From positions 1,302,001-1,366,000 of the forward strand of contig NZ_AHCF03000003.1 in the NCBI RefSeq assembly GCF_000238275.3: a stretch of DNA of 64,000 nucleotides. Direction: 5' to 3'. Shown here one piece after another: positions 11,383 to 64,000 of the stretch. Numbering within the stretch: the stretch's first letter is position 1; each line of letters opens with the position of its first letter. The position numbers and the translations under genes were made by a program. This stretch comes from Pseudoalteromonas undina. Lineage in GTDB: Bacteria > Pseudomonadota > Gammaproteobacteria > Enterobacterales > Alteromonadaceae. The notes under the pieces are model-generated. The model was not told where the DNA came from. It did no database searches and saw only the letters and a program-made list of their open reading frames with translations.

Positions 11383-12264
11383 CTACATTTTTACCCCCTT
11401 GAGAGAGTACTCTAAAAAATCGATTAGATAGCGTGTGCTTTTTGGGATTAATTTATCAGGCCATATCAGGTTTACATCTCGTTTAATAGGCTTGAATTGC
11501 GTTAATACTTCAACCAAGCTTTCGTCTTTTATATGCGGTAATAAACAATATTTTGGACCATAATAAACACCTCTTCCTTCAATGGCAGCTAAGGCACACA
11601 TTTCTATATCGTTGGAAATAAAGTTGGGTTGAGGTTTAAAAATTACTTTTTCATTTTTATTTGCTTTAAAAGACCAATTTTCGAATGGCGAGCACGATAT
11701 GTGGGGGAGTTTAGCTAAATCGTCAAAATTACTTGGTATGCCATATTGCTCAATTAAACTCGATGAGCAAGCTAAAACAAAGCTCATTTGGTTAATGACT
11801 TTACATATATTTTGTGAGCTATCTAATTTTCCGATTCTAATAGCTAAATCAAACTCGGTGGCTTTTAAATCAAGGCGTTCATCTGATAGCATCATATGAA
11901 TCTTAATATTTGGATAAAGTAGGGTGAATTGATTTATAACGCCTGAGAAGTACACACTCTTTATAAAGTTTTGCGGTGCTATTAATTTAATTTTACTCAC
12001 TTTATTTTCACTAGAGTTCTTAAAATTGCACAGCGTACTTTGTAAACCCTCTACGTGAGCTAAGCAATGGCTATAAAAGCTCTTTCCTGGCTCTGTTAAT
12101 CGCAAACTTCCTTTTTCACGATAAAACAACGCTAAAGATAAGTCTTCTTCAAGTTTTTTTATTTTTCTTTGTAAAGTGGGTAAAGGAATATTTAACTTTA
12201 CTGACGCTTCATTAAATGTTTTGTAATCATTTACTTTTATAAAAAGCGCGATTATATCAAGCAA
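11383..12264 (-). CDS. LysR-family transcriptional regulator
   Basis: The protein has 293 residues. The N-terminal winged helix-turn-helix covers about residues 3-62 (FNEASVKLNIPLPTLQRKI then GSLRLTEPGKSF), followed by the two-lobed effector-binding domain from about residue 90. It starts at TTG: AGGAG lies seven bases before TTG 12264 and no ATG is closer. LysR regulators usually control a neighbouring gene; here the next gene in the same direction is the aerolysin-like toxin 182 bases on, so control of the toxin is a reasonable guess but not shown. The effector is unknown. Confidence 0.85.
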   Translation of the reverse strand: MLDIIALFIKVNDYKTFNEASVKLNIPLPTLQRKIKKLEEDLSLALFYREKGSLRLTEPGKSFYSHCLAHVEGLQSTLCNFKNSSENKVSKIKLIAPQNFIKSVYFSGVINQFTLLYPNIKIHMMLSDERLDLKATEFDLAIRIGKLDSSQNICKVINQMSFVLACSSSLIEQYGIPSNFDDLAKLPHISCSPFENWSFKANKNEKVIFKPQPNFISNDIEMCALAAIEGRGVYYGPKYCLLPHIKDESLVEVLTQFKPIKRDVNLIWPDKLIPKSTRYLIDFLEYSLKGVKM

Positions 12265-49658: not shown

Positions 49659-50651
49659 ATGAGCAATCCTATTAAAGCTATTGTTATAGACAAGCAAGAC
49701 GACGACTACAGTGCCAATTTAAGCAGCATAAACAGTGATGATTTACCAAACGAAAATGTATTAATTGACGTACTGTACAGTACCCTAAATTACAAAGATG
49801 GCTTAGCCATTACTGGCAAAGGTCCTGTAGTTCGCAGCTTCCCTATGGTACCTGGCATTGATTTAGTGGGTACAGTTACTAACAGCGACAGTGAAGAATT
49901 TAAAGCTGGCGATAAGGTGATTTTAAATGGCTTTGGTGTTGGCGAAAAACATTGGGGTGGCCTAGCCCAAAAAGCGGCTCTTAGCAGCGATTGGTTAATT
50001 CCCCTACCTGCCAACTTATCAGCTAAACAAGCTATGCAAATTGGTACTGCCGGTTACACAGCAATGTTGAGCGTGATTGCCCTTGAAAAACAAGGGATCA
50101 CCCCTGACTCAGGTGAAGTGTTAGTCACCGGTGCCAATGGTGGCGTAGGCAGTTTTGCTATTTATTTACTAAGCCAGCTAGGTTATCAAGTAACCGCAGC
50201 AACAGGTCGCATGGAACAAGCTGACTATTTAAAATCATTAGGTGCAACTAATGTAATTGATAGGAACGAGTTTTCAAACCCAGGTAAACCACTGCAAAAA
50301 GAACGCTTTGCTGCTGCCATTGATTCTGTAGGGAGTCACACACTTGCTAATATTTGTGCCTCACTTAAATACGGTGGCGTAGTAACAGCTTGTGGGCTTG
50401 CACAAGGTATGGATTTGCCAGCGTCTGTTGCGCCATTTATTTTACGTGGTATTTCTTTAATGGGTATTGATAGCGTAATGCGCCCTAAAGCGGACCGTGT
50501 TGAAGCATGGGATCGTTTAGCATCCCTAGTTAGTAGCGATTACTTAGATAAAATTTCGACCGAAATCACACTTGATCAGGTTATTGAAAATGCTGAACAG
50601 CTCATGCAGGGCCAAATTCGTGGTCGTGTTGTGGTTAATTGTCAAAGTTAA
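49659..50651 (+). CDS. acuI: acrylyl-CoA reductase AcuI
   Basis: The protein has 330 residues, a zinc-free medium-chain dehydrogenase of the YhdH/AcuI group. LNYKDGLAITGKGPVVRSFPMVPGIDLVGTV is the N-terminal part of the family block. VLVTGANGGVGSFAIYLL is the NADPH-binding loop and SLMGIDSVM is the late signature. It reduces acryloyl-CoA to propionyl-CoA with NADPH, detoxifying acrylate made from DMSP. No DMSP lyase is in the window. Confidence 0.93.
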   Translation: MSNPIKAIVIDKQDDDYSANLSSINSDDLPNENVLIDVLYSTLNYKDGLAITGKGPVVRSFPMVPGIDLVGTVTNSDSEEFKAGDKVILNGFGVGEKHWGGLAQKAALSSDWLIPLPANLSAKQAMQIGTAGYTAMLSVIALEKQGITPDSGEVLVTGANGGVGSFAIYLLSQLGYQVTAATGRMEQADYLKSLGATNVIDRNEFSNPGKPLQKERFAAAIDSVGSHTLANICASLKYGGVVTACGLAQGMDLPASVAPFILRGISLMGIDSVMRPKADRVEAWDRLASLVSSDYLDKISTEITLDQVIENAEQLMQGQIRGRVVVNCQS

Positions 50652-50723
50652 GCATTTTTGCTATTAAACTCTCGTTATTAAATTTATAATACTGGCCGTA
50701 TTTTTAATAACGAGAGAACACCT

Positions 50724-51140
50724 ATGAGCAACCAAGAACTTTTCAGTAATAACCCACTGCAAGGCGTTAAATTAGAGCAAGTGGTTGAAGAACTGGTTGA
50801 GCAATATGGGTGGGAACTCCTGCATGCCTACTTACAACTCAACTGCTTTAAAAATAACCCTGACATTAAATCTGCGGTTAAATTTTTACGTAAAACCGAG
50901 TGGGCACAGCAAAAAGTAGATAATTTCTATTTGTACCGCCTAAAAAACTTACCACGCCCAGATGACGTACAATACGAACTGCCTCCACGAGACCGTATTA
51001 TCCCTGAAGGCGATAAACCAGGTGAACCATGCGAGTTAAGCTTTTCTGATGCTAAGCGTATTCAAGAGAAAAAAGCAGCCAAGCAACGTGCCCGTACTCG
51101 TAAACAACGTTCAAATTCAAGTAACCCTTGGGGTAACTAA
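50724..51140 (+). CDS. VF530-family DNA-binding protein (DUF2132)
   Basis: The protein has 138 residues. The VF530 domain covers about 10-80 (NPLQGVKLEQVVEELVEQYGWELL, then INCFKNNPDIKSAVKFLRKTEWAQQKVDNFYL, with LPRPDD after). The C-terminal 40 residues are basic (KRIQEKKAAKQRARTRKQR) and likely bind nucleic acid. The family is named from a Vibrio fischeri structure, and its biological role is not known. GAGAGAA precedes the ATG. Confidence 0.9.
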   Translation: MSNQELFSNNPLQGVKLEQVVEELVEQYGWELLHAYLQLNCFKNNPDIKSAVKFLRKTEWAQQKVDNFYLYRLKNLPRPDDVQYELPPRDRIIPEGDKPGEPCELSFSDAKRIQEKKAAKQRARTRKQRSNSSNPWGN

Positions 51141-51156
51141 GCTAATTTCATAAAAG

Positions 51157-51182
51157 AGCTAACTTTATTGTTAGCTTTTTTT
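51157..51182. terminator. terminator after the VF530 gene
   Basis: The stem AGCTAAC / GTTAGCT with loop TTTATT is followed by seven T. It lies between convergent genes. Confidence 0.75.
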
Positions 51183-51196
51183 GTTTATTGAGGAAA

Positions 51197-51628
51197 TTAA
51201 TAGCCTCGGTGTTTCCAAAAATCATCTTCTGTTTTGGTCTGTTCATTAGTTAGATTAAATGTTTTATCAGCAATGACTTTTCCTGCTAATGATAAGGTCA
51301 TACGCCAGTTACCTATTTTATCTTCTATAGGCTCCCACACGGTGTCGCCTAAATAAAACGACCAATCGTTATCTTTAACATATACATTCCCCTCAAAAGG
51401 CTGCATCACTTCGCCATCGGCATCTATAATACCGGGGTGATAAATACAATAATGTAGCTTTTCGCCTTTGGCTTTTTTGATATTTACTATTAGGCCAAAT
51501 TCCACATCAATACACGCGGTTACCTTTGTGGTGAATTGCGTGATTTGTGGTAACGATTTACTGGCTTTGTCCCAGTTGGAATATATACCGTAACTTTCTA
51601 ATGTAATTTGTGGTTTAGATTTTGCCAT
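51197..51628 (-). CDS. DUF3859 protein
   Basis: The protein has 143 residues. The DUF3859 pattern is visible: ITLESYGIYSN, TACIDVEFGLIV, PGIIDADGEVMQPFEG, YLGDTVWEPIEDKIGNWRMTL and DKTFNL. There is no signal peptide. The function is unknown. It lies 57 bases downstream of the kinase gene in the same direction, so the two may be cotranscribed. Confidence 0.75.
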   Translation of the reverse strand: MAKSKPQITLESYGIYSNWDKASKSLPQITQFTTKVTACIDVEFGLIVNIKKAKGEKLHYCIYHPGIIDADGEVMQPFEGNVYVKDNDWSFYLGDTVWEPIEDKIGNWRMTLSLAGKVIADKTFNLTNEQTKTEDDFWKHRGY

Positions 51629-51684
51629 TTAACTTTCTATTTTTTCTTTCTATTGTTAAGCCACCAGCCTCAGCGAGTGACTTA

Positions 51685-53502
51685 TTAATTAAGTAGTTGT
51701 TTTGGATTTTTAGGATAATAATTGCTGGGTTGCTGCTCGCATAAACTAAACTCGCGAGTATTTTTATACGGCAACTTCATAAAACCAGCGACCCCAACAT
51801 CAGTTATATTAACCGCGTACTGCATGAGTTTATTTAGCAAACGTTTAAATTCAACTTCTTTACTAGCATCGAGTAATCGATAGTAATGGTGAATTTTCAT
51901 CCTATCTGGTAGTGCTTCAAAAATAATACAACCCGTATGATGTATCTGGTTTAGCTCAAATACACATTTAATCACCTTTTTAGGCAGTTGCAGTTGTTCA
52001 TCGGGATCTTTACCATCTTCAAAATATGAGTGCGGACGGGTTACCTCGCTGGCTTTTACATTAACCACTTCATAGTCAAGCTCAGGTAACTGGTTAAATT
52101 TGAACGCACCGGTGCCATCGCGTTCTAACTGAATTGTTTTGCGGGCATCAAATAAACAACACTTAAATAAGCCTTTTTGACTAATCGCTTGTGCCAGCAT
52201 TACAGTATTATTTACCGCATCAGTAAACGCGGTGGCTAAAGCTTCATCGTGCATAATAAGTGATGACTCAACATACAAAGAATCATCTTTCCAATGAAAA
52301 CTCAGTCCCCCTACTACCGGGTATTTCGCTAAGCGACTAATTGACGCTAAAAACGCTTTTTCGGTATCCCCAGTATCAAACAAAAATTCTTTGTAATACC
52401 TATCTAACTGGGCATCGTTTACATCGAGTAATTGCTGTTTATGGTCGGCTTGGCGTAAAAATTGTTTTCGGGAACTATATACAACGGTTTCGGGCTCAGG
52501 ATCTTGGCTAAACCAAAAAGGAATGCGTGCTTTAGTGTCTTGCTTTGGTAGCTCTGGTAAAAATGCTTTTGCCATAGTTTCTATGTTACGCATAAAATAG
52601 TCGCCGGCTTTATCCCTTACACTACGCTCTTTTGAAAGCATGCCGTCAATTACATTCGCAAGCTCTTTTGGTAGCATTAAACTACTGGCCGGAATAGCCT
52701 GAGCGCCAAATCGACAAGACTGAGCCGATGCAAGTGCATACAACGTTGATGCAACCCCCTGCTCATCAAAACGAGGGGATGACTTTTCGCCAGACATTTG
52801 CGCATCACCAATAAAATACACATCACCCATTCGCGCGTTAGTGGTGCTTAAATCACCCGACATTAAATCCATAAAATTACTGGCAATAGGGTTACCTTGT
52901 TCATCTACTTGGGCATATACCGAGCTTCCCCAATCAACCAATGAAAGCTGCTTGGCTTTTTCATCCCACACCAAGTTAGAGGGTTTAATATCGCCATGCA
53001 CAATAGGTTGAGGGCTTAATCCATTTTTATGATGGCGTAAATCAAGCAACACATTTCTCAATTTTACCGCTAAGTTCATTATTTTTGCAGCAGATAGCCG
53101 CCCTTGCTTAAGTGATACTTTTTCAAGGTCTTCACCTACTGCACGGGCCATCATTAAAATGCCCTGTTTTTTAATCCGCTCAAAGCCATAAAATTTTGGT
53201 ATTAGCGGATTATCAATTTGAGACAGCATATACGCTTCGTCTTCAAGGCGATCTCGCACACTTTGTGCCAGCGTTATTCTTGAAAATTTAAACACCCACG
53301 GCAGGCCATGTTCATCATCACCCGCAAAAACAAAGCCAAACGCACCAGAGCCAATCATTTCAACATTTTTATAACCAAGTAGTGTTAGCTGTTTAATACA
53401 AATGTTAAGCCATTGGCGATGCTTTTTAGCATCACGGTGCGATAACAAATAAACAGACTGTTCTTCGTTAATATAAAAGTTGCGAATTTCTTTTGCTTTC
53501 AA
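51685..53502 (-). CDS. serine/threonine protein kinase with unknown C-terminal domain
   Basis: The protein has 605 residues. The kinase domain (about 45-320) has the glycine loop IGSGAFGFVFAG (50-61), the likely ATP Lys at Lys72 (WVFKFS), the catalytic loop HGDIKPSN (169-176) and DWG at 190-192 in place of DFG. The C-terminal 280 residues are soluble, with no membrane helix, and match no domain I know. The kinase is cytoplasmic; its target is unknown. Two-component-like partners are absent; DUF3859 is the only neighbour in line. Confidence 0.87.
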   Translation of the reverse strand: MKAKEIRNFYINEEQSVYLLSHRDAKKHRQWLNICIKQLTLLGYKNVEMIGSGAFGFVFAGDDEHGLPWVFKFSRITLAQSVRDRLEDEAYMLSQIDNPLIPKFYGFERIKKQGILMMARAVGEDLEKVSLKQGRLSAAKIMNLAVKLRNVLLDLRHHKNGLSPQPIVHGDIKPSNLVWDEKAKQLSLVDWGSSVYAQVDEQGNPIASNFMDLMSGDLSTTNARMGDVYFIGDAQMSGEKSSPRFDEQGVASTLYALASAQSCRFGAQAIPASSLMLPKELANVIDGMLSKERSVRDKAGDYFMRNIETMAKAFLPELPKQDTKARIPFWFSQDPEPETVVYSSRKQFLRQADHKQQLLDVNDAQLDRYYKEFLFDTGDTEKAFLASISRLAKYPVVGGLSFHWKDDSLYVESSLIMHDEALATAFTDAVNNTVMLAQAISQKGLFKCCLFDARKTIQLERDGTGAFKFNQLPELDYEVVNVKASEVTRPHSYFEDGKDPDEQLQLPKKVIKCVFELNQIHHTGCIIFEALPDRMKIHHYYRLLDASKEVEFKRLLNKLMQYAVNITDVGVAGFMKLPYKNTREFSLCEQQPSNYYPKNPKQLLN

Positions 53503-53714
53503 TGCATGTACTCAAAATAATAAGGTGTAAAAACGCCCTTCGATTATTAGTTTTATATAAAGAGATTACAATAGCTTATAGCTTTGTTTTTATCTGCAGT
53601 TATAAATATGATTGATAAAAACATAAATAATAAAAAATATTGCATCCAATATCCTGTTCTGGCCGTTGCTTAATGACATCTAGTTAAAGAATAATGATTT
53701 AAAGGACTTTAAGC

Positions 53715-55730
53715 GTGAAGAAACTAGCATTTATAACATTAGGAATTTTACCGTTTAGTTATGCACAAGCAAGCATAGAGAAATTAACCGTTTACGGACA
53801 CAGAGATAGCCTAATTGGCGAGTCTATTAGTGCCTCAAGCGGTATTATTGGGCAAGGCGAGATTCAACAACGTCCTATGTTAAGAAGTGCAGAATTGTTG
53901 GAACTGATCCCAGGTATGGCAGTAACTCAACATAGTGGCTCAGGAAAAGCGAATCAATACTTTATAAGGGGCTTTAATTTAGATCACGGAACAGATTTCG
54001 CCACTAATATTGATGGTATGCCAATAAATTTACCTAGCCATGGGCACGGTCAAGGCTATACCGATTTAAATTTTATTATTCCAGAATCTATATCAAGCAT
54101 TAATTATCAGAAAGGATCTTATAGCGCTACCCAAGGAGACTTTTCATCAGCTGGGAGCGCAAATTTTAATCTTATAGATACACTAACTCATCAACAAGTA
54201 AGTCTTAGTATTGGAGAAGATAACTACAAGCGAGCCACAGTACTCGCTTCAACTGATGTTACAAAAGGTAAACTAATGGCCGCAGCTGAGTGGCAAGGAT
54301 ACTCCGGTCCATGGGATGATATTAATGAAGCTGTTAATAAAAAAAACGCACTCCTTCGATATGTTGGCAAAGCATTTAATGGCGATTTTACCCTCAGTGC
54401 TATGGCCTATCACAACAGCTGGAATTCAGCTGACCAAATCCCTAAGCGCGCAGTTTCTCAAGGGTTAATTTCTCAGCTTGGCTCTTTAGATACGTCATTA
54501 GGTGGCAATTCTAGCCGCTATAGTTTATCGACCGTTTGGCAAGGTGAAAACCTAAAGGTAAATGCATACGCAATAAGTTATGACTTAGATTTATACTCAA
54601 ATTTTAGCTATTTTTTAAATGATCCTGTTAATGGCGATCAATTTAACCAAAAAGACAGTCGTAAAGTATATGGTGGCGAATTTAATTATCAGCTTGATAC
54701 CAAAATGCTAGCTATTAACATGCAACATACGGCAGGGTTAGCACTTCATCATACCAACATTGATAACGTTGGCTTATATAACACAAAAAAAAGAAAGCGA
54801 TTATCTACAGTAAGACAAGACGATTTAAATCAAACTAGTTACTCAGCCCATTGGGGATCAAAGCTTTTTTTAAGTACCAATCTAGAAGCAAGCTTAGGTA
54901 TTCGATACGACTACTATAACGTTGATGTTAATAGCAATATTTCAGCTAATTCGGGTAGTCAAAACGATGATTTAGTGAGTTTAAAAGCTAGTTTAAACTA
55001 CCAATTTACCGATTTAGTAGCCGCCTATGCTAATTGGGGTCAGTCATTTCATTCAAATGATGCTCGTGGAGCAACAATTAATGTAGACCCTGTTACATTA
55101 GATAAATCAGAGCAAGTAGATTTACTGGTAAAAAGTGAAGGCGCTGAAATTGGTTTAAGGTTTGCTGAACCAAAAACATTTAACTTATCGGCTGCATTAT
55201 GGTGGTTAAACCTCGACTCAGAACTTCTATTTGTTGGCGATGCAGGTAATACAGAGCCTAGTGATGCCTCTGAGCGCTATGGTATAGAGATGAGCGCCTA
55301 TTATTGGGTTAATAATAGTTTTAGTCTTGATGCTGAAGCATCATTTACCCACTCTCGTTTAAGCATAAATAATGTCAAAAACTATATAGAAGGTGCAGTA
55401 CCCGTTGTCGCAAGCGCTGGCTTAAATTGGCATTTAACAGAACAATGGCAGTCATCGTTACGTATTCGCCATATAGGTAAACGCACATTAACAAGCGACG
55501 GAGAAAAACGCTCGGAGCCATTAACCGTAGTTAATAGCTCTATAAGTTATCAGCAAACTCATTGGCAAGTAGAGTTTGAGTTACTGAATTTATTTAACAG
55601 CAGAGACCATGATATTGATTATTATTATTCATCGCGCTTACCTAATGAGCCCATTGATGGTGTTGAAGATAATCACTTTCACCCTATAGAGCCAAGAACT
55701 GCCCGATTAAGTTTTAGCTTATTATTTTAA
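53715..55730 (+). CDS. TonB-dependent outer-membrane receptor
   Basis: The protein has 671 residues, starting at GTG with AAAGGA nine bases upstream. A signal peptide (about 1-19) is followed by the TonB-box-like EKLTVYGH. The plug domain (about 35-145) carries LLELIPGMAVTQHSGSGKANQYFIRGFNLDHGTDFA. A 22-strand barrel follows, ending in the aromatic ARLSFSLLF. The plug motif GHGQGYTDLNF is shared by a common but uncharacterised receptor group. The ligand is unknown; no Fur box was found upstream. Confidence 0.9.
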   Translation: MKKLAFITLGILPFSYAQASIEKLTVYGHRDSLIGESISASSGIIGQGEIQQRPMLRSAELLELIPGMAVTQHSGSGKANQYFIRGFNLDHGTDFATNIDGMPINLPSHGHGQGYTDLNFIIPESISSINYQKGSYSATQGDFSSAGSANFNLIDTLTHQQVSLSIGEDNYKRATVLASTDVTKGKLMAAAEWQGYSGPWDDINEAVNKKNALLRYVGKAFNGDFTLSAMAYHNSWNSADQIPKRAVSQGLISQLGSLDTSLGGNSSRYSLSTVWQGENLKVNAYAISYDLDLYSNFSYFLNDPVNGDQFNQKDSRKVYGGEFNYQLDTKMLAINMQHTAGLALHHTNIDNVGLYNTKKRKRLSTVRQDDLNQTSYSAHWGSKLFLSTNLEASLGIRYDYYNVDVNSNISANSGSQNDDLVSLKASLNYQFTDLVAAYANWGQSFHSNDARGATINVDPVTLDKSEQVDLLVKSEGAEIGLRFAEPKTFNLSAALWWLNLDSELLFVGDAGNTEPSDASERYGIEMSAYYWVNNSFSLDAEASFTHSRLSINNVKNYIEGAVPVVASAGLNWHLTEQWQSSLRIRHIGKRTLTSDGEKRSEPLTVVNSSISYQQTHWQVEFELLNLFNSRDHDIDYYYSSRLPNEPIDGVEDNHFHPIEPRTARLSFSLLF

Positions 55731-55892
55731 ATTCCGCCTATGACAATAAAAACGAATGAAAATGATTTATAGAGCGAAAATAACAGAAAAAAGTAACTAT
55801 ATCGTTGTTATTTGCTGTTTCACCGTATCCTACTTAACTACAGTAGGCTAAATAAGGTAAAACACCCCTTTAAATTATTCTTAGGTTAAAAA

Positions 55893-57410
55893 ATGAAACG
55901 TATTATAAAAGCCTCTTCAATCGCGCTTGCACTGGGTATGTGTATTAATGCACAAGCAGCAGACTTTAATTTTTCTACAAAAGTAGACAGCGACGCAAAT
56001 ACGCTGGTTGTATTTTATAGCCAAGATGGCAGCAACAGCCAATTTAAAACACTTGATAAACAATTTGATGGCCAATTACAACGTGTTATCGATATAGAAA
56101 ACTTCACTGGCGATTACGCAAAAGTCGCGCAACTTGTCGCGCCTAGTAAAAGTAACTACAGCCGTATTTTGGTTGTAGGTACAGGTAAAGCAGACGAATT
56201 AAATAAAGCAAAAGCGGCTAAGTTAGGCGGTAATATTCATGCTCGCCTAGTTAAAGCTAAAGTAGGCACTGCCAGTGTTATTTTTGATGATGTAACGGGT
56301 GCAAATGATAATGCTGCGCTTGCTGCTAATTTTGCCCACGGTGCAAACCTACGCGATCACCGTTTTGAAAACTACAAAAAAAAACCAAGCACTGAAACAG
56401 TTAGCTATACGTTTGATGTTGATAACACCAAGCAAACTCGCAAGCTTTACAGCCAATTAGAGAGTATTCAAGCAGGTGTATTTTTAGCACGCGATTTAAC
56501 CTCAGAAGTGGCTACAGAAATGACACCGGTTGATTTTGCCAATGCAGCAAAAGAATTAGCGTCGTTAGGGGTTACTATCAAAGTGTTAGAGCCTAAAGAA
56601 CTAAAAGAACTAGGCATGGGCGCATTAGAAGCTGTGGGTAGAGGTAGCCAGCAAGGTGCACGTTTAGTAGTTGCTCATTATAAAGGTTCTGACGCTGCCC
56701 CTATTGCCCTTGTTGGTAAAGGCATTACGTTCGACTCAGGTGGTTACAGCATTAAAACCGGCGCGTCTATTGCACGTATGAAATCAGACATGGCCGGTGC
56801 TGCTGCAGTGCTTGGTACTGTAAAAGCAATGGCGTTAGCTAAAGCAGATAAAAACGTAGTAGCTGTTATGGGCATGGCAGCTAATATGGTATCGCAATTT
56901 GCTGTAGCGCCGGGCGATGTTGTTCGCACCGCTGAAAGCTTAAGTGTAGAAATTTTAAATACCGATGCTGAAGGTCGTTTAGTACTAAGTGATGCAATGT
57001 GGTATGCACGTGAGCACTACAAACCAGAGATCATGATTGATGTTGCAACCTTAACGGGTTCTAAAATTCGTGCTGTTGGTAATGAATACGCAGCGGTATT
57101 CTCTGATGATGACACACTAGTATCGCAACTTACCCTTGCAGGTAAACAAGTAAACGAAAACCTATGGCGCTTACCATTAGGTTATAAAGATATGTTGAAG
57201 TCTGACATTGCTGATATAACAAATGTAGGTTCAGGTGGCCCTGGTGCAACCACAGCCGCTACTTTCTTAGAGCATTTTGCTGGCGACACCCGTTGGGTGC
57301 ATATCGATATTGCAGGTAATGCCTTAGTGAAAAAAGGTAAAGATGAGCTATCACCAGGGGGAACGGGGTTTGGTGTTCGCTTATTAAGCGAATGGTTATT
57401 AGCTAACTAA
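55893..57410 (+). CDS. exported leucyl aminopeptidase (M17)
   Basis: The protein has 505 residues and a signal peptide (about 1-22, INAQA), so it is periplasmic or secreted, unlike cytoplasmic PepA. The C-terminal catalytic domain has GKGITFDSGGYSIKTGASIARMKSDMAG (metal and catalytic Lys region) and the hallmark NTDAEGRLVLSDAMWYA. It releases N-terminal amino acids using two zinc or manganese ions. It is a single gene with a long terminator. Confidence 0.93.
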   Translation: MKRIIKASSIALALGMCINAQAADFNFSTKVDSDANTLVVFYSQDGSNSQFKTLDKQFDGQLQRVIDIENFTGDYAKVAQLVAPSKSNYSRILVVGTGKADELNKAKAAKLGGNIHARLVKAKVGTASVIFDDVTGANDNAALAANFAHGANLRDHRFENYKKKPSTETVSYTFDVDNTKQTRKLYSQLESIQAGVFLARDLTSEVATEMTPVDFANAAKELASLGVTIKVLEPKELKELGMGALEAVGRGSQQGARLVVAHYKGSDAAPIALVGKGITFDSGGYSIKTGASIARMKSDMAGAAAVLGTVKAMALAKADKNVVAVMGMAANMVSQFAVAPGDVVRTAESLSVEILNTDAEGRLVLSDAMWYAREHYKPEIMIDVATLTGSKIRAVGNEYAAVFSDDDTLVSQLTLAGKQVNENLWRLPLGYKDMLKSDIADITNVGSGGPGATTAATFLEHFAGDTRWVHIDIAGNALVKKGKDELSPGGTGFGVRLLSEWLLAN

Positions 57411-57428
57411 TTGTTTATTAATACTAAT

Positions 57429-57465
57429 AAAAGCGCCAAAGTAGGTTTACTACTTTGGCGCTTTT
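57429..57465. terminator. terminator after the aminopeptidase gene
   Basis: A perfect 16-base-pair stem (57429-57444 with 57450-57465) has loop GTTTA, with T residues on the 3' side. Confidence 0.85.
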
Positions 57466-57593
57466 TGTACGAAAACAGTTTTATAGAGCTCAATACATCA
57501 CTATTAATAAATCCTTAAAAGTGTGTTTATTATTTGATTTTGTTTGATTTATAATCAAAGATAGAAGGAACAATTAGTAACGAGGTCAAAGGA

Positions 57594-59141
57594 ATGAAAA
57601 TAACCTACCTGCTCTACAGCATTTTTTATTTAAGCATTTGTTTTCTTTTCTATTTTGAACAGCTCTCCACCATTGCTGCAGCAATTATAGTGCTGTTATC
57701 TGCAATTTTTTATATAAAACCAGTAAAATCTGAATCAGCAAATAACAATTCGTCACTAGGTGCCGTGCAGTCGTTCAATAACAAAATTGCACAAAACATT
57801 ACCAAAGCCACCTCAAAAAATGCCATAGGCGCAGCTGAAGTGTCATTTTATGTTGATAGCTTATCTAAAGAAATAGACGCCTGTTATAAAGAAAGTGAAA
57901 CTGTCGGGCGTGCCACACACGAGCTTTCACAAAATAGTACTGAACTCAGTGACAGCATGACCACTATTAATCAAGCAATGGTACAAACAGCGCAAGCCTC
58001 AAGCTCTGCCGATAGCCGCTTACAAACGGCCACCAGCCAAATTGATTCGTTATCAGGCTCTATAGATAAAGTGGCCCAGCAATTAGATTTATTATTAAAA
58101 AGTGCCAGTGATATACAAAGCATTACCCAAGTTATTCAAAACATTGCAGAGCAAACCAATCTACTTGCTTTAAATGCAGCCATAGAGGCCGCTCGTGCAG
58201 GTGAGCAAGGTCGTGGTTTTGCGGTTGTTGCCGACGAAGTGCGTAACCTTGCAAATAAAACCAATGAAGCAACCAAACAAATTGCTGACATGCTCACAGA
58301 CATTAACGCCAACAGTATAAAAACCAATGAAGATATGAAGCAGGTTTCACAGCAAAGTATTTCTGTAAAATCAGAGCTTGAAAACGTGACTCAATCCTTT
58401 TTAACAATTAACCAAGATATTGGTGCCTCATCTACCGCGCTTGATAGTATGCATCAGTCTGTTTCTGCATTTCAGCATGCAACCACACAAATAAATAGCT
58501 CAGTCACTAGCATCAGTAGTTTATTGGGCGAAGTTACTAAAAAAGGCAGTACAATTTCTCAGCAAGCGTCTTCTTTATCGCTGGGATCAGAATCAATATT
58601 TAGAGAGCTTGAAAACATAGAGTATGACGCATTCTTTAAACCAATTCTGATATCGGCTAAACACGCCAGTAAAGCAATTGGCGAATGTTTTGAGGGTTGG
58701 ATCCAAAGCGGAAAAATAACCCAGCAACAACTTTTTTCGCAAAACTATAAACCCATCGAGAATACTAATCCAACCAAGTACACAACCGATTACGATAAAC
58801 TTACAGATCAATCACTGCCGGCTATTCAAGAACCAATTCTGGAAAATAAAGACATAATTTTTGCAGGAGCCGTTGATACTAAGGGCTACTTTCCTACTCA
58901 TAACAAACGCTATAGCCAAGCCCTAACCGGTAACTTTGAAAAAGATTTAGTAAACAACCGTACTAAACGTATTTTTAATGACCCGACAGGAATTCGCTGT
59001 GGTAGCCACACCGAAAGCTTTTTATTACAAACCTATAAACGTGATACCGGTGAAATACTGCATGACCTCTCGGTGCCAATTTATGTAAACGGTAAACATT
59101 GGGGCGGGTTTAGAATTGGGTTTAAAAGTACAAATCATTAA
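57594..59141 (+). CDS. methyl-accepting chemotaxis protein with C-terminal sensory domain
   Basis: The protein has 515 residues. Two membrane helices (about 4-22 and 25-46) form a short hairpin with almost no periplasmic part. The long cytoplasmic coiled coil contains the MCP tip [37 protein letters not shown], which binds CheA and CheW. The last 170 residues form a PAS/Cache-like domain ([39 protein letters not shown]), so sensing is probably cytoplasmic. AAAGGA precedes the ATG. Confidence 0.9.
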
Positions 59142-59150
59142 TTCATATAA

Positions 59151-59175
59151 AAAGGGAGACACATGGTCTCCCTTT
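59151..59175. terminator. terminator between MCP and cytochrome b genes
   Basis: A ten-pair stem (AAAGGGAGAC / GTCTCCCTTT) with loop ACATG lies between convergent genes. Confidence 0.75.
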
Positions 59176-59190
59176 CTATATGTGATGTGT

Positions 59191-59742
59191 TTATTTTTTA
59201 GAAAACAGCATACGTTTAAAGGTGTTATCAGCCAAAATGTAATGATGAAATAATGCAGCCGCCGCATGTAAGCCTATTACGTAATAACCAACTTCGCCCG
59301 CTGTTTCGTGTATTTCTTTAATGGTTTTACCCAGCTCTTTGTTTTCACTTGCCAATGGAGGCAACTCTAAACCAAAAAATGGCACAGGTTTACCTGCCAT
59401 ACTTAATATTAACCAACCCGCAATTGGCATAGCAAACATAAACACATACAGCGCAAGGTGTACAAATTTAGCTAACTTATCTTGCCACTTTGCAGGCTCA
59501 GGGTGTATAGCTGGTACCGAGCCGCCCACTACACGCGCAACTACCCTCACGCTTACTAAAGCTAAAACCGATAAACCCAACATAAAATGCCACATTTTAA
59601 AGGCATCACGGGTTTCAGTGCCTTTATCAAATAATTCGCGAAGTTCAATACTACCGTACACAGTCACAATTAAAATAAACATCAACCAATGCAAAGCAAC
59701 AGAGAGTGTATTGTAATGAGTATCTGTATTTTTAAAATTCAT
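59191..59742 (-). CDS. cytochrome b561-family protein
   Basis: From ATG 59742 the protein has 183 residues; GGAGG lies seven bases upstream, which decides the start. Four membrane helices carry haem-ligand histidines in VALHWLMF, KMWHFMLG, FVHLALY and GLHAAAALFHHYILADNTF. This is the small diheme b561 type (YodB/CybB-like), which moves electrons from quinol to a periplasmic acceptor. The partner is unknown. Confidence 0.9.
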   Translation of the reverse strand: MNFKNTDTHYNTLSVALHWLMFILIVTVYGSIELRELFDKGTETRDAFKMWHFMLGLSVLALVSVRVVARVVGGSVPAIHPEPAKWQDKLAKFVHLALYVFMFAMPIAGWLILSMAGKPVPFFGLELPPLASENKELGKTIKEIHETAGEVGYYVIGLHAAAALFHHYILADNTFKRMLFSKK

Positions 59743-60053
59743 AATACCTCCTAATAAACGCATTAAAGTTAAAAGCTCACTTATGCATATGAGTACATGT
59801 ATACAGGCTAACCTTTAATCATTCACAGTTTAATGATCTGAAACATAGAATGAGTTAATAAGTCAGTTCAATAGTTTAATGATTCTGGAATTTAAGTATT
59901 AGTTATAATAACTGAGCAAGCTTAAAATAAACTTAAATAATAGGCATAAAAAAACGGCAACCTTAAGTTACCGTTTTAAAAATCAACGTGTTTTAGAAAT
60001 AATAAACAGCAGCAAATGAAAGAGTATCGAGAACGACGAGTGATTTAGACTAG
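59743..60053. other. AT-rich region left of the IS remnant
   Basis: This stretch of about 300 bases contains one imperfect hairpin with A/T tracts at 59950-59977 (stem with one mismatch) that looks like a terminator whose gene is missing. Two copies of GTTTAATGATnCTG-like words near 59827 and 59875 are probably chance. It is likely the edge of an inserted or deleted segment. Confidence 0.4.
59950..59977. terminator. orphan terminator-like hairpin
   Basis: Stem AAAACGG(C)AAC / GTT(A)CCGTTTT with one mismatch and loop CTTAA. It ends no visible gene on either strand. Confidence 0.5.
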
Positions 60054-60359
60054 CTAAAGGTAGCAGAATTGGTTCTTATGATGTCTGAAGTCAAGATTTG
60101 ACCCCATTGGTTTTTTTAGCGCATGAAATACGCGTGGGCTACCATAGGTTTGATGATTTACATTGAACACGTGCTTTATCATCAACAACAAATTAGCATC
60201 TGACAGCACTCTAGCTGACACTGTACGCTCACGCCAAGCATAAAACCCACTACGCGAAACATTAAGCCAAGAACACAAGCATTTGACGCCTAAAGCTTGT
60301 CCGAACTTTTTGATGAATCCAAATCGTTCTGATGTACTTCCGCCAGATACCGTTGCCAC
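60054..60359 (-). pseudogene. IS3-family transposase orfB, 5' fragment
   Basis: The fragment of 101 residues includes the N-terminal IS3 OrfB helix-turn-helix and the HQTYGSPRVFHALK block. It then runs out of homology into the 24-bp repeat and a random tail to TAG. The whole integrase core (DDE) is missing, so no transposase can be made. It overlaps orfA as expected for programmed frameshifting. Confidence 0.8.
60080..60103. repeat. 24-bp dispersed repeat, copy 2, at the orfB break
   Basis: Reverse complement of 798-821 with one mismatch. It sits at the point where the IS3 orfB loses homology, suggesting that it is the end of another element inserted in or deleted next to the IS. Confidence 0.55.
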
Positions 60360-60664
60360 TTTTTTAGCAGGTCATTCTCCTGCTTAAGGCGCTCATTTTC
60401 TTTCTTAAGCTTTTGAATGTTATTTAACTCTTTTTTTGTTGGGAGTTTACTCATTGTTTCGTTGTTGCTTTGATAGCGCGGTGCGTTTTTAAACTTACCT
60501 TCTCGATACTCTTTTCGCCAACGACTCAGCATTAACGGATGAATATCTAGCGCCTCGGCAACGTCCTTTGACAAGACATCGTCTCGTAAGCTTAGTTCGA
60601 CTGCTTTGACTTTAAAATTAACGGGATAAAACCATGTCTTTCTAGGTTAGGTATATCTAGGCAT
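60290..60664 (-). pseudogene. IS3-family transposase orfA with an internal stop
   Basis: The helix-turn-helix DVAEALDIHPLMLSRWRKEYREGKF and the leucine-zipper-like coil KLKKENERLKQENDLLKKW are typical of IS3 OrfA. The family's N-terminus (MPRYT, PRKTW) is interrupted by TAA at 60647-60649. A later internal start at 60574 gives a 94-residue piece. A perfect hairpin hides the ribosome site upstream. Confidence 0.8.
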
Positions 60665-60669
60665 TTTAG

Positions 60670-60691
60670 CCTCCTCAAAGTAATGAGGAGG
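60670..60691 (-). promoter_or_regulatory. hairpin sequestering the IS orfA ribosome site
   Basis: CCTCCTCA / TGAGGAGG form a perfect eight-pair stem with a six-base loop; on the minus strand one arm is the GGAGG of orfA. In IS elements such hairpins stop translation when the transcript comes from outside. Here the protected gene is already dead. Confidence 0.6.
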
Positions 60692-60736
60692 TGTCCACTA
60701 AAACGGGTGAGGAGCATTGTCCTTTTAAACGACTTG

Positions 60737-62377
60737 TTATGTCGCGGTTTGCTCAACTTTTTCAATTACTTTTGTCGATAGTTTAGCCATTATTTTTTTA
60801 ATAAAGTTTGGCTTTTTATGCGTTTCTGGGACAAGTTCAACTAAAGAGATAAAACTAACCCCTTTACTTTTTAGAACGTCAAATGATTTTTGATCATGAT
60901 TGCAAAGGTTTCTCGCCTTATCCTGTCTTTGTTGTTCTGTATTTCCCTTAACTAAGGGCAAGTATTTATCTAAGTTTGTATATGGGTTTTCTAGCTTTTT
61001 ATCAAAAAACACCTGATACAATAGCAGCCAATATTGGTCGATATCAAAGAGGCTCAATTGAAGAATACTTTTACAAAACACGACAACTTTTTGTTGGTGC
61101 GGTGTAAATAAATACAAAGTAGTGATAGCAATAACATCACCAGTCTTTATAATTTTATCCGCCATTTCATCGCTTAATGTTGCCGAGTAATATTTAGCAA
61201 TATAGAAAAGACACCAAACCATACCATCCGAGTTTTTATTAATTATGCACTCAGTTAGGGTAAAAATAAGTGACTTATAATAACTATCGTTAGGTTTTCT
61301 TGTCGCAACTGAAAGTAGATCGCCAATCAATGGTAACAAAATCGGATAATGCATTGTTAAGTTTATAGAGTAATCAAGCAAAGCAATTTTGGCTTTTGGG
61401 GTAGCTTTGTTTATTAATGATTTCAATGTAAATTTAAGGATGCTACCACCTGAGTTTTTTTCCTGAAGATCGAGGGCATAGTCGAGCATTTTTATACAAT
61501 AAAATTCATTCACTTTCTTACGTTGGCTAATTCTTGAGCCAAGGTCCGAAACCCAGTCAGCAGCTGTGGGCTTAGGAAGTTTTTTGATTTCGGTTTTCTT
61601 TATGTTTAAAAGCAAACCGTATACAGATAAAAATTCCGACAGATCTCTTATGAAAGATTCTGATTCTTCGTATGTTGAGCAAAAAGCTGTGTAATCATCG
61701 ATAAATCTATAAAACTCATAACCTTTGCCTTTAAGAAGTTTGTCCACCTCATATAATATGATTTCACTTATGATATTTGATGTCCCTGGCCCTATAGCTA
61801 CTCCTGTAGTCTCATTCCTTTTCATCATCCTTTGATGTTGGTCTAGTTCATTCTCAAAACCACCATTTTGGTTTATTTTTGCAGCTTGCACGCCCAAAAG
61901 TGCCCATGGTATAGAATGAGTGTAAATACTTGGGTAAAAATTTGAAATATCGGAATGTACGATAAATTTTTTACCTTTACAGGAATCATTATATCTCTTT
62001 GTTTTACGTTTGGATTGTTCGTAAGTCATTACAATAATTCGACCATCTTTATGTTTTAACGGTCGAATTATGCTGTTTTCATTGTTTTCAATATGACTGA
62101 GGGAATCCCAGTTTTCAGTTATGGTATTTACCAAATGTGCGTAAGGTAAAGGGTGAGGAATGGATATTTTACGATGGACATTATTAAATCTAGTTACGTT
62201 AAATGACAAATCATCATATCCACCACTTCGTAGTTTTATTGCTACTAATTCATCAGCAATGTCCGCACTAAAAGCACCGGAATTGAATATTGATGGTAAT
62301 TCTTCATTTCTGTTTTTTTGAAGTGGGAAGTAATTTGATTTAAGAAGTCCTTCTTTCACAAACTTTGAGTCTATCAT
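60737..62377 (-). CDS. stand-alone reverse transcriptase, UG/Abi (defence-associated) type
   Basis: From ATG 62377 (with AGAGGGA just upstream) the protein has 546 residues; ATG 62398 lacks a ribosome site. The N-terminus has a YFP-like motif (SNYFPLQ) typical of this group. The first catalytic Asp is in SDISNFYPSIYTHSIPWAL (near 143) and the paired Asp in YRFIDDYTAFC (225-228), replacing YxDD with FIDD. GVAIGPGTSNIISEIIL is RT motif 4. After about residue 290 the protein is purely helical, about 250 residues, as in Abi/DRT enzymes. There is no maturase or Zn domain, so it is not a group II intron. Phage defence is an inference from family; the exact UG class is not assigned. Confidence 0.85.
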   Translation of the reverse strand: MIDSKFVKEGLLKSNYFPLQKNRNEELPSIFNSGAFSADIADELVAIKLRSGGYDDLSFNVTRFNNVHRKISIPHPLPYAHLVNTITENWDSLSHIENNENSIIRPLKHKDGRIIVMTYEQSKRKTKRYNDSCKGKKFIVHSDISNFYPSIYTHSIPWALLGVQAAKINQNGGFENELDQHQRMMKRNETTGVAIGPGTSNIISEIILYEVDKLLKGKGYEFYRFIDDYTAFCSTYEESESFIRDLSEFLSVYGLLLNIKKTEIKKLPKPTAADWVSDLGSRISQRKKVNEFYCIKMLDYALDLQEKNSGGSILKFTLKSLINKATPKAKIALLDYSINLTMHYPILLPLIGDLLSVATRKPNDSYYKSLIFTLTECIINKNSDGMVWCLFYIAKYYSATLSDEMADKIIKTGDVIAITTLYLFTPHQQKVVVFCKSILQLSLFDIDQYWLLLYQVFFDKKLENPYTNLDKYLPLVKGNTEQQRQDKARNLCNHDQKSFDVLKSKGVSFISLVELVPETHKKPNFIKKIMAKLSTKVIEKVEQTAT

Positions 62378-62398
62378 CCGATCCCTCTGTAGCGACAT

Positions 62399-62729
62399 AA
62401 CAGCTTATTGAACACCACTTTGGGGAGTTATAGCACCCCAAAACGGCGTATATTACATTGCTCAATAATTCCACTAAATAACTTCAATGTAAACAAGTTA
62501 TTACGCAAGTTATAAAATTATCGTTGTTAAAATACACCAAAACGACTTTTAATAATGTTCTTGGGCAAAACACCGCACACTGTCTAAATATACAGTATTC
62601 TTTTTTAAGTTGAATATCGTTTATGAAATCTCTGTTTCTAACCATGGTTAAATTATAATGGTGCGATTTAAAACAAAAAAGCACAGCTCAAAGAGCTGTG
62701 CTTTCAATAATTAAATTAGAGCTGACAAG
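62399..62729. other. structured non-coding region upstream of the reverse transcriptase
   Basis: This region follows the terminator of the SDR operon (62678-62704) on the minus strand. It has a seven-pair hairpin TTTGGGG/CCCCAAA at 62419-62442, an eight-pair inverted repeat AATAACTT/AAGTTATT at 62477-62502 and a CAAGTTAT direct repeat nearby. Several defence RTs use a co-encoded upstream RNA as template, so an ncRNA here is possible but unproven. No convincing peptide is seen. Confidence 0.4.
62678..62704 (-). terminator. terminator of the SDR-mmsB operon
   Basis: A twelve-pair stem (AAAGCACAGCTC / GAGCTGTGCTTT) with loop AAA has a T-tract on the minus strand. It separates the catabolic operon from the reverse transcriptase gene. 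Confidence 0.85.
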
Positions 62730-63500
62730 TTATAAACGTATGCCGCCGTCTATCTCTACTACACGGCCAGTGAAAAAGTCGTTTTCGATAATATACTGAG
62801 CAGTATGGGCTATTTCAGCGGTTTCACCTAAGCGCCCTACGGGTGTTACTGCTAGCATGCGCTGTTTAGCTTCTGGCTTCATTACATCGGTCATCGCGGT
62901 GCTAATAACACCTGGGGCAATAGCGCCAACGCGAATACCAAAACGGCCAAGCTCTTTTGCCCATGTAGTGGTTAGTGCCACAACACCTGCTTTTGAGGCA
63001 GCATAGTTAGTTTGGCCAATATTACCCGCACGCGCTACGCTTGACATATTTACAATTACGCCGCCTTTGCCTGATTCAATCATGTGGCTAGCCGCTTCGC
63101 GCCCTGCTAAAAATACACCTGTTAAGTTAACGTCAATTACTGATTGAAATTGATCAAGCGACATTTTTTTTACCACTTTGCCGTCTTTGGCTTTTATAAA
63201 CATACCATCGCGTAAAATGCCGGCGTTATTAATTAATACCCCAATGTGACCAAAGTCACTGTTAATGGTATTAAATACGTCTTCAACTTCGCTCTCAACG
63301 GTTACATTAGCGCTGTAGCCTTTAATAGTGCCTGTTACGCCTGCTAATGCAGATAGTTGCTCGGTTGCTTCATTTAATTGGGCTTGCGCCATATCAATTA
63401 AGGCAATATTAGCGCCCATTAAGGCAAACTTTTGCGCCATTGCAAAACCTAAGCCTTGTGCGCCACCGGTAATAACTACGGTATTATTATTTATTTCCAC
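62730..63500 (-). CDS. short-chain dehydrogenase/reductase (FabG-like)
   Basis: The protein has 256 residues. The cofactor loop is TGGAQGLG, then NNAG, and the catalytic Ser and Tyr-x-x-x-Lys are in NMSSVA and YAASK. It starts at GTG with AGGAAAG upstream. It lies nine bases after mmsB, so a role in branched-chain amino-acid breakdown (3-hydroxyacyl-CoA dehydrogenase type) is likely. NAD is the probable cofactor. Confidence 0.85.
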   Translation of the reverse strand: MEINNNTVVITGGAQGLGFAMAQKFALMGANIALIDMAQAQLNEATEQLSALAGVTGTIKGYSANVTVESEVEDVFNTINSDFGHIGVLINNAGILRDGMFIKAKDGKVVKKMSLDQFQSVIDVNLTGVFLAGREAASHMIESGKGGVIVNMSSVARAGNIGQTNYAASKAGVVALTTTWAKELGRFGIRVGAIAPGVISTAMTDVMKPEAKQRMLAVTPVGRLGETAEIAHTAQYIIENDFFTGRVVEIDGGIRL

Positions 63501-63509
63501 AATACTTTC

Positions 63510-64000
63510 CTACTTCGAAAACAATTTAAAAATGGCACTAAAATCATCACTGCCTGCACCTTGGTGCTGCATCATAGTGTATAAATTTTTAGCCATTGAG
63601 CCCATTGGCGTTAGTGAATTACTCTGCTGCGCCGCCTCCATAGCAAGGCCTAAGTCTTTAGCCATTAAATCAACCATAAAGCCGGGTTTATAGTCGTTAC
63701 TAGCTGGTGCGGTTTCCATAACACCTGGGCAGGGGTTATAAAGTTCTAACGTCCAGTTACGACCCGAACTTACGCTCATTATGTCACTGAGTACTTTTGC
63801 ATCGAGACCGTTATTAATGCCCATTTGAATAGCTTCACTGGTACCCGCCATTAAAATACTCAACAGCATATTGTTACATATTTTAGCAACTTGCCCTGCA
63901 CCAATATCACCAGCATGGAATATGTTTTTACCCATATCGACTAATACAGTATTGGCTTTATCGAATGCAGTTTGCTCACCACCCACAATAAACGTAAGCG
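63510..64000 (-). CDS. mmsB: 3-hydroxyisobutyrate dehydrogenase MmsB, 5' end outside window
   Basis: The last 163 residues or so are present; the frame is open at the right edge, where LTFIVGGEQTAFDKA is the MmsB middle block. The substrate-binding GAGQVAKICNNMLL (catalytic Lys) and KDLGLAME follow. It oxidises 3-hydroxyisobutyrate to methylmalonate semialdehyde in valine breakdown. The Rossmann N-terminal domain lies beyond the window. Confidence 0.92.
   Translation of the reverse strand, partial: LTFIVGGEQTAFDKANTVLVDMGKNIFHAGDIGAGQVAKICNNMLLSILMAGTSEAIQMGINNGLDAKVLSDIMSVSSGRNWTLELYNPCPGVMETAPASNDYKPGFMVDLMAKDLGLAMEAAQQSNSLTPMGSMAKNLYTMMQHQGAGSDDFSAIFKLFSK

Follow-up and report, generated by a model that had tools for sequence, protein, structure and literature searches.

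The reverse transcriptase (RT) gene drt4 of Pseudoalteromonas undina is, with a probability of roughly 0.86, an integron gene cassette inserted at an attI site and coding for a DRT4 defence polymerase, at a locus where the adjacent integrase gene (intI) has been deleted and the attC site of the cassette has been split. The features on which this reading is built are collected in Table 1, where "the window" denotes the whole stretch of 64,000 nucleotides that was analysed.

Table 1. Positions of features at the drt4 locus, numbered from the first nucleotide of the window.
Feature	Position	Strand	Remarks
drt4 (UG15) CDS	60737..62377	-	546 aa; ATG preceded by AGAGG; frame open up to ATG 62398
attI core, about 106 bp	62398..62503	-	recurs across the genus; the genes behind it vary with the locus
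Inferred IntI recombination point G/TT	62400..62401	-	homology to relatives' attI ends and homology to the Colwellia cassette begins
Candidate cassette promoter (Pc-like)	62465..62493	-	TTTACA, 17 nt, AATTAT with preceding TG; points into drt4; weak
LexA-like box CTGT-N8-ACAG, from the promoter that intI once had	62580..62595	.	
intI residue	62623..62658	+	MKSLFLTMVKL then stop, against MKSIFLTMIKDHM in G102; remainder deleted
Terminator-like hairpin	62677-62705		one present, no more than chance gives (shuffle mean 1.8)
SDR gene bordering the integron locus on the left	62730..63500	-	named by eye and from the matching gene's annotation
attC 5' half (R''-L'') of the drt4 cassette	60717..60740	-	interrupted by the IS
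Right-truncated IS3-family element inside attC	60115..60716	-	right end approximate
Cytochrome b561-like gene	59191..59763	-	named by eye; right flank of the locus in sister species

The RT protein is a member of the known Drt4/UG15 family. The preliminary description had located its gene at 60737..62377; this is a real ORF, but it begins at the second ATG, and the full ORF in the ORF list (60737-62398, minus strand) encodes 553 residues. The shorter product has the length common to many close homologues, and the frame is intact. Pfam RVT_1 matched the protein at 44 bits (cut-off 29.6), and 812 proteins among 7,998 scored candidates matched it at E≤0.001. Its PADLOC score was 658.6 bits with Drt4, against 280 with Drt6, 196 with UG30, 155 with UG31 and 148 with AbiK, and the NCBIfam Drt4 model gave 621 bits (cut-off 450). 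The protein fell far under the cut-offs of the NCBIfam Drt3b, group II and retron St85 models; scores of 45 bits with the group II model (cut-off 300) and 43 bits with the retron St85 model (cut-off 235) argue against a group II intron or a retron, two of the outcomes that the preliminary description had named as contrary to its own view. PDB sequences of DRT4/UG15 align to residues 11-486 of 553 with E about 1e-102, and the solved DRT4 is ∼37% identical. Three aspartates, two of them within the FIDD motif, are invariant in 45 of 45 aligned family members (D149, D233 and D234 in alignment numbering, which is one lower than the D150, D234 and D235 of the 553-residue frame). In the same 45 sequences Pro24 and Gln26 (alignment numbering) of an N-terminal NYFPLQK segment are invariant, and 14 tyrosine positions are shared by 80% or more of the sequences.

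An AlphaFold2 model of the RT (mean pLDDT 90.6, pTM 0.88) superimposed on the DRT4 structure 9vdo with TM scores of 0.85/0.94 (rmsd 1.6) and on the UG15 structure 9l9s with 0.84/0.86 (rmsd 2.1); the structures ranking next after DRT4/UG15 were DRT6, AbiK and Abi-P2, with TM scores of 0.47-0.82. The C-terminal part of the model is helical, with a poorly predicted tail at about residues 521-552. Because profile scores, PDB sequence match, invariant aspartates and model fold all agree, the RT was assigned to UG15/Drt4, the class being read from profile scores and fold in place of an RT tree. The earlier proposal of a stand-alone UG/Abi-type RT from a defence family, with a FIDD active site, an N-terminal YFP motif and a long helical C-terminus, is thereby borne out, except for its statement that the class could not be assigned and might be undescribed. 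No partner ORF was seen beside drt4 in the ORF list. A search for an ncRNA partner with Rfam, which holds described RNAs only, found no match at drt4 (positions 50000-64000, E≤1), and one sub-threshold match 9 kb away, to the STnc430 sRNA at 51103-51188 (32 bits, cut-off 47), is probably due to chance. The 64-kb window contains no tRNA genes.

drt4 was identified as a cassette because it starts at the G/TT that ends attI, has half an attC site behind it, and is represented in Colwellia by a copy lying between attC sites. In the Colwellia locus (L018), where no intI was found, drt4 is flanked on both sides by attC, at 9908-9998 (E 4e-15; a site that belonged to the training set of the attC model) and at 11659-11831 (E 4e-5). 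When the cassette flanks were compared with this one close homologue, the window and Colwellia agreed at 1-5 of 10 positions per 10-nt block before the junction and at 8-10 of 10 after it; the junction reads AAGCTG/TTATGTCGC in the window versus GGGGCG/TTATTATGTCGC in Colwellia. At and after the drt4 stop codon both read CATAACAAGTCGTTT, the start of attC, a site that is complete in the Colwellia homologue and present as the 5' half only in the window, where the end of the IS3 element starts about 24 nt in. Since its attC is broken, the window copy of drt4 is probably no longer movable as a cassette. The two drt4 genes are 94.5% identical in DNA with a dN/dS of 0.20, a ratio that spans their whole divergence, not only the time at the present site, and that points to purifying selection on drt4 throughout it.

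The repeat preceding drt4 was recognised as attI plus the start of intI because intI directly adjoins it in three relatives (G102, G037 and G087), in which an open intI frame lies between the same SDR gene and the attI repeat. The stretch containing the SDR gene has a match in all 108 genus genomes, the weakest at about 66-73% identity, and these matches may include paralogues. In the window the adjoining intI is reduced to about 10 codons, so that the locus is not a complete integron, and the attC model returned no match at E≤0.1 in the 64 kb, where a CALIN has two or more attC; drt4 is the only cassette now recognised at the locus. Elsewhere in the P. undina genome a single intI exceeds the cut-off; it lies at a distance of 132 kb from drt4, and its product is 57% identical to the G102-type IntI. 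Insertion at an attG was dropped as an explanation, the site being homologous to the attI beside intI in relatives. Reading the repeat as an attC or a MITE was dropped as well: the attC matches all lie on one side of it, and intI directly adjoins it. A counterpoint to the attI reading is that the attC model weakly matches the attI of one further locus, L201 (E 0.046).

The 255 bp before drt4 occur repeatedly within the genus. A 135-bp query matched at least 52 of 108 genomes at E≤1e-6, often in several copies, and a family search for the repeat matched at least 22 of 395 genomes, 21 of them in the genus; copy numbers are lower bounds, with up to eight candidates per genome scored in the genus and up to two in the family. 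In the P. undina genome itself the repeat has five matches at E≤0.001, of which three reach E≤2e-19; scoring 150 of 2,145 candidates there also gave at least 20 attC matches at E≤0.1. Among 39 copies, which include the window's own site two times and several further duplicates (a site retrieved in two fetches, or a locus shared by sister genomes), the GTTA end is present in all and the AATAAGCTG/TTA end in 31; the DNA behind the end differs by locus. Of 42 copies with downstream DNA, 40 have an ORF of at least 60 aa on the same strand whose start is no more than 81 nt from GTTA, a count made without a chance control.

To locate attC sites, a covariance model (R1) was built from 29 attC, chosen by eye among 69 candidates that a pattern-and-fold search of the fetched loci had given on either strand; compensatory changes are present at five of its nine base pairs. 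Over 62 sources (732,124 bases) the model gave 122 matches at E≤0.1. At 40 attI-copy loci every one of the 73 attC matches with E<0.01 lay downstream of the repeat and on the same strand, including 7 that by their coordinates are training-set sites; two matches at 0.01<E≤0.1 stand outside this count and are likewise downstream on the same strand. No attC was found at E<0.01 upstream of the repeat (about 4 kb, 39 loci) or on the opposite strand. Matches occurred in 26 of the 35 loci with downstream DNA (L118, L122, L130, L133 and L136 are without it, and L123 is almost without upstream DNA).

Where about 4 kb of upstream DNA was available (39 copies), traces of intI were detected in nine and not found in the other 30; in five of these 30 the upstream genes were read by eye and look like ordinary chromosomal ones. 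The motif TTTACA-N16-18-AA(T/C)TAT is present in 53 of 55 distinct attI copies and the LexA-like CTGT-N8-ACAG in 29 of 55, against 0.035 expected per mononucleotide-shuffled set; copies that share a locus among sister genomes do not count as independent. The LexA-like box persists in many attI copies though intI is gone. Dispersed intI-less attI copies (L108-L147, L055-L060 and L073) head cassette arrays at recurring chromosomal loci. The L125 copy adjoins an amylase-like gene that, in genome G000, flanks that genome's own integron. A general enrichment of defence genes at attI copies found no support: PADLOC matches at E≤1e-5, both weak, were obtained for 2 of 20 other first cassettes, which had been picked by length from 40.

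The IS3 element beside the RT gene had been described as dead, and its OrfA and OrfB are indeed cut relative to an intact copy (L187:283-1475). Its adjacency to the RT gene stands too, but the surrounding integron had been overlooked: the gene is a cassette at attI, and the IS3 element lies inside the attC of that cassette. The "core catabolic operon" said to precede the RT gene is the preliminary description's own naming. Members of this IS3-family element (L184-L195) share one position and one orientation inside attC sites. The IS left end yielded 12 exact matches in 7 of 108 genomes and 11 distinct places, each of them by eye behind an attC 5' half, with TAACAA in 10, TAATAA in L188 and TAACGC in L194. 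Copies L187, L189 and L195 show 3-bp target duplications (CTA, CAA and ACA) and have the attC 3' half beyond the IS right end. Apart from IS1111-type elements and group IIC introns, no mobile elements that target attC are known to us. The same right-truncated relic closes the array in the window (60060-60740) and in the more distant genome G035 (L070:5148-5871), behind different cassettes, which suggests exchange within the IS or the array.

In two sister species (G096 and G068) the same site carries other genes. The intI deletion aligns as one shared junction in the window, G096 and G068, and the three have no DNA in common from attI to the cytochrome b561-like gene, apart from brief matches at the IS relic's edge. 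The G096 array consists of a gene without PADLOC or Pfam match, an attC (E 0.0025) and a Ser/Thr kinase whose PADLOC matches (mads_6, Stk2 and PD-T4-6) may reflect the kinase domain alone. The G068 array pairs a GmrSD_N protein (PADLOC NsnA, 1e-77) with a HEPN protein, and an attC (E 3e-5) comes after them. At this cassette site of the sister species (L057:1618-3250), the GmrSD_N and HEPN RiboL-PSP proteins precede one attC, and the pair is likely a two-gene defence cassette. An intI over the cut-off and without internal stops is present elsewhere in all three genomes, and recombination in trans is therefore possible; another IntI of the same genome would have performed it. Three sister species with one common intI deletion and three cassette sets constitute a natural test of trans capture at an orphan attI. 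The broader proposition that dispersed intI-less attI sites, each with its own promoter and many with a LexA-like box, still work as docks for which a small number of integrases (perhaps just one) encoded elsewhere in the genome act in trans, and that defence genes such as drt4 are exchanged there after local intI loss, is a tentative one that we regard as rather doubtful.

Differing cassettes in the window and the two sisters could also be what differential loss has left of a single long array in their ancestor, with no new capture at an intI-less attI, an explanation to which we assign somewhat less than even odds. Cassette loss is common, and the IS relic held in common with the more distant G035 implies that parts of an old array persist; on the other hand, the three arrays lack nucleotide homology except at the relic edge, and a search of both sister genomes for drt4 at E≤0.001 gave no match. 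A separate question is whether drt4 at its present site is a silent fossil, intact by chance, unexpressed and no longer protective. Its broken attC, the dead IS, the lost intI and a promoter-like site no better than chance would all fit such a fate, which we nevertheless consider unlikely given the intact frame, the dN/dS of 0.20 between genera (over their whole divergence) and the retention of TTTACA-N16-18-AA(T/C)TAT in nearly all attI copies.

Two further explanations bear on the identity and the vehicle of the gene. That the RT represents an undescribed UG/Abi class could be argued from its modest identity to the solved DRT4 and from the poorly predicted C-terminal tail, but Drt4 is the best model by a wide margin, residues 11-486 align at E 1e-102 and the fold is the same; profile scores and fold rule this class out for practical purposes, and we give it almost no credence. 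Many RT defence genes travel on phages, plasmids or other islands, and drt4 might have been brought by one of these, with the likeness of its ends to attI and attC arising by chance. The patchy occurrence of DRT4 agrees with such carriage: a genus search at E≤0.001 found matches in 14 of 108 genomes and a Drt4-like protein in 5, namely the window's own and four genomes at 37-41% identity. With the threshold at E≤1e-80, matches came from 6 of the 395 family genomes and from 4 of the 394 order genomes; the only close one besides the window's genome is a 93% copy in genome G183, presumably the Colwellia sp. E2M01 copy of L018, with which it agrees in identity and in contig position. The close named homologues are from Colwellia (93%), Shewanella morhuae (89%), Eionea flava (86%), Vibrio cholerae (69%) and V. 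parahaemolyticus (68%). Strict core-gene status, named earlier as an argument against a defence role, fails accordingly, with a close gene in 1 of 108 genus genomes; drt4 has a patchy distribution, is not core and was probably spread by horizontal transfer. Against island carriage, 50,697 phage records yielded no full-length relative and 72,556 plasmid records a single one, at 37% identity, and a viral-contig scan, which detects close relatives only, found none; prophage, plasmid or viral carriage was rejected for want of a close relative in these collections. In addition, the left junction is the attI end, an attC half lies behind the stop codon and the Colwellia copy is flanked by attC. We therefore regard an island origin as very improbable and retain the integron cassette as the form in which drt4 arrived.

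Taken together, the locus can be read as follows. A DRT4 gene was most likely captured as a cassette at a chromosomal integron attI between the SDR and cytochrome b561-like genes. The integrase gene beside attI has been deleted, only its initial codons being left, and the attC of the drt4 cassette has been split by an IS3 element of the attC-inserting kind. Transcription of drt4 probably starts from a promoter inside attI, for which the hexamers are weak evidence because the whole attI core is conserved and a promoter scan of the region is at chance level (7 promoter-like sites versus a shuffle mean of 9.2). DRT4 is described as a single-gene, template-independent, Tyr-primed polymerase whose random ssDNA is toxic when phage ORF55 protects its 3' end (PMC13213688, PMC13314766). 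Assembly into a hexamer is a further trait of the DRT4/UG15 class. The same chemistry is expected here because fold and catalytic residues agree: by homology, the enzyme would make template-independent, tyrosine-primed ssDNA that turns toxic once a phage DNA-binding protein protects its 3' end, and the infected cell would thereby stop phage growth. With only 37% identity to the solved DRT4, trigger and product may therefore differ. Expression, polymerase product, phage trigger and defence activity of the window's drt4 are predictions, as is recombination in trans, while the analysis does show the family, the fold, the cassette junctions, the loss of intI and the differing cassettes at the common site.

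DRT4, antiphage cassettes and intI-less arrays are each already known. The window's RT resembles DRT4/UG15 (PDB 9vdo, 9vdv and 9l9s; NF041749) in combining an RT with a helical C-terminal domain, in being a single gene as far as the ORF list and Rfam indicate, in its catalytic aspartates and in its fold; it differs from the solved proteins in sequence (∼37% identity) and in being borne on an integron cassette, and it is known here from sequence and predicted fold. DRT6, AbiK and Abi-P2 belong to the same superfamily; they come directly after DRT4/UG15 in the fold comparison and rank among the runners-up by profile, but are set apart by TM scores of 0.47-0.82 and much lower profile scores. A literature search that covered few subscription papers, and is weak evidence of absence, returned no paper announcing DRT4 as an integron cassette and, within the same scope, no report of dispersed attI-headed intI-less arrays in Pseudoalteromonas. 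In place of the new RT class first suspected, the locus offers a well-defined example of a DRT4 gene that travels from one marine genus to another in the form of a single integron cassette.

Integron cassettes that carry antiphage genes are reported to have been described in 2025 by Darracq, by Getz and by Kieffer, all three cited in PMC12444791. The drt4 cassette resembles them in carrying a defence gene and differs in that its platform is without its own intI. An SDR-intI-attI block related to the window's locus is present on plasmid pRVS1-224 of the fish pathogen Aliivibrio salmonicida (NZ_CP034238.1, L201:7001-9195). In this block IntI is 97-98% identical to that of G102 in two matched pieces, the attI core is 93% identical and an SDR gene adjoins; it differs from the window's locus in lying on a MOBH plasmid with a predicted dfrA1 and an intI that matches in two pieces, while the window copy is chromosomal and without intI. 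Behind the plasmid attI are six attC matches at E≤2e-4 and the predicted dfrA1, with a predicted sul2 further off. We take the pRVS1 integron to be the one called 'class 5', a designation of which no mention was found in the papers searched for it. If orphan attI sites still receive cassettes in trans, this bears on how integrase-less integrons renew phage defence. DeltaattI cassettes have been described (PMC12901181), and another paper describes intI-less arrays (CALIN) at recurring loci, for example in Xanthomonas, and CALINs mobilisable in trans (PMC12444791). The arrays reported here are like the CALIN and Xanthomonas arrays in carrying cassettes without an adjacent intI at recurring loci; unlike CALINs, they begin with a recognisable attI, with a LexA-like box in 29 of 55 copies.
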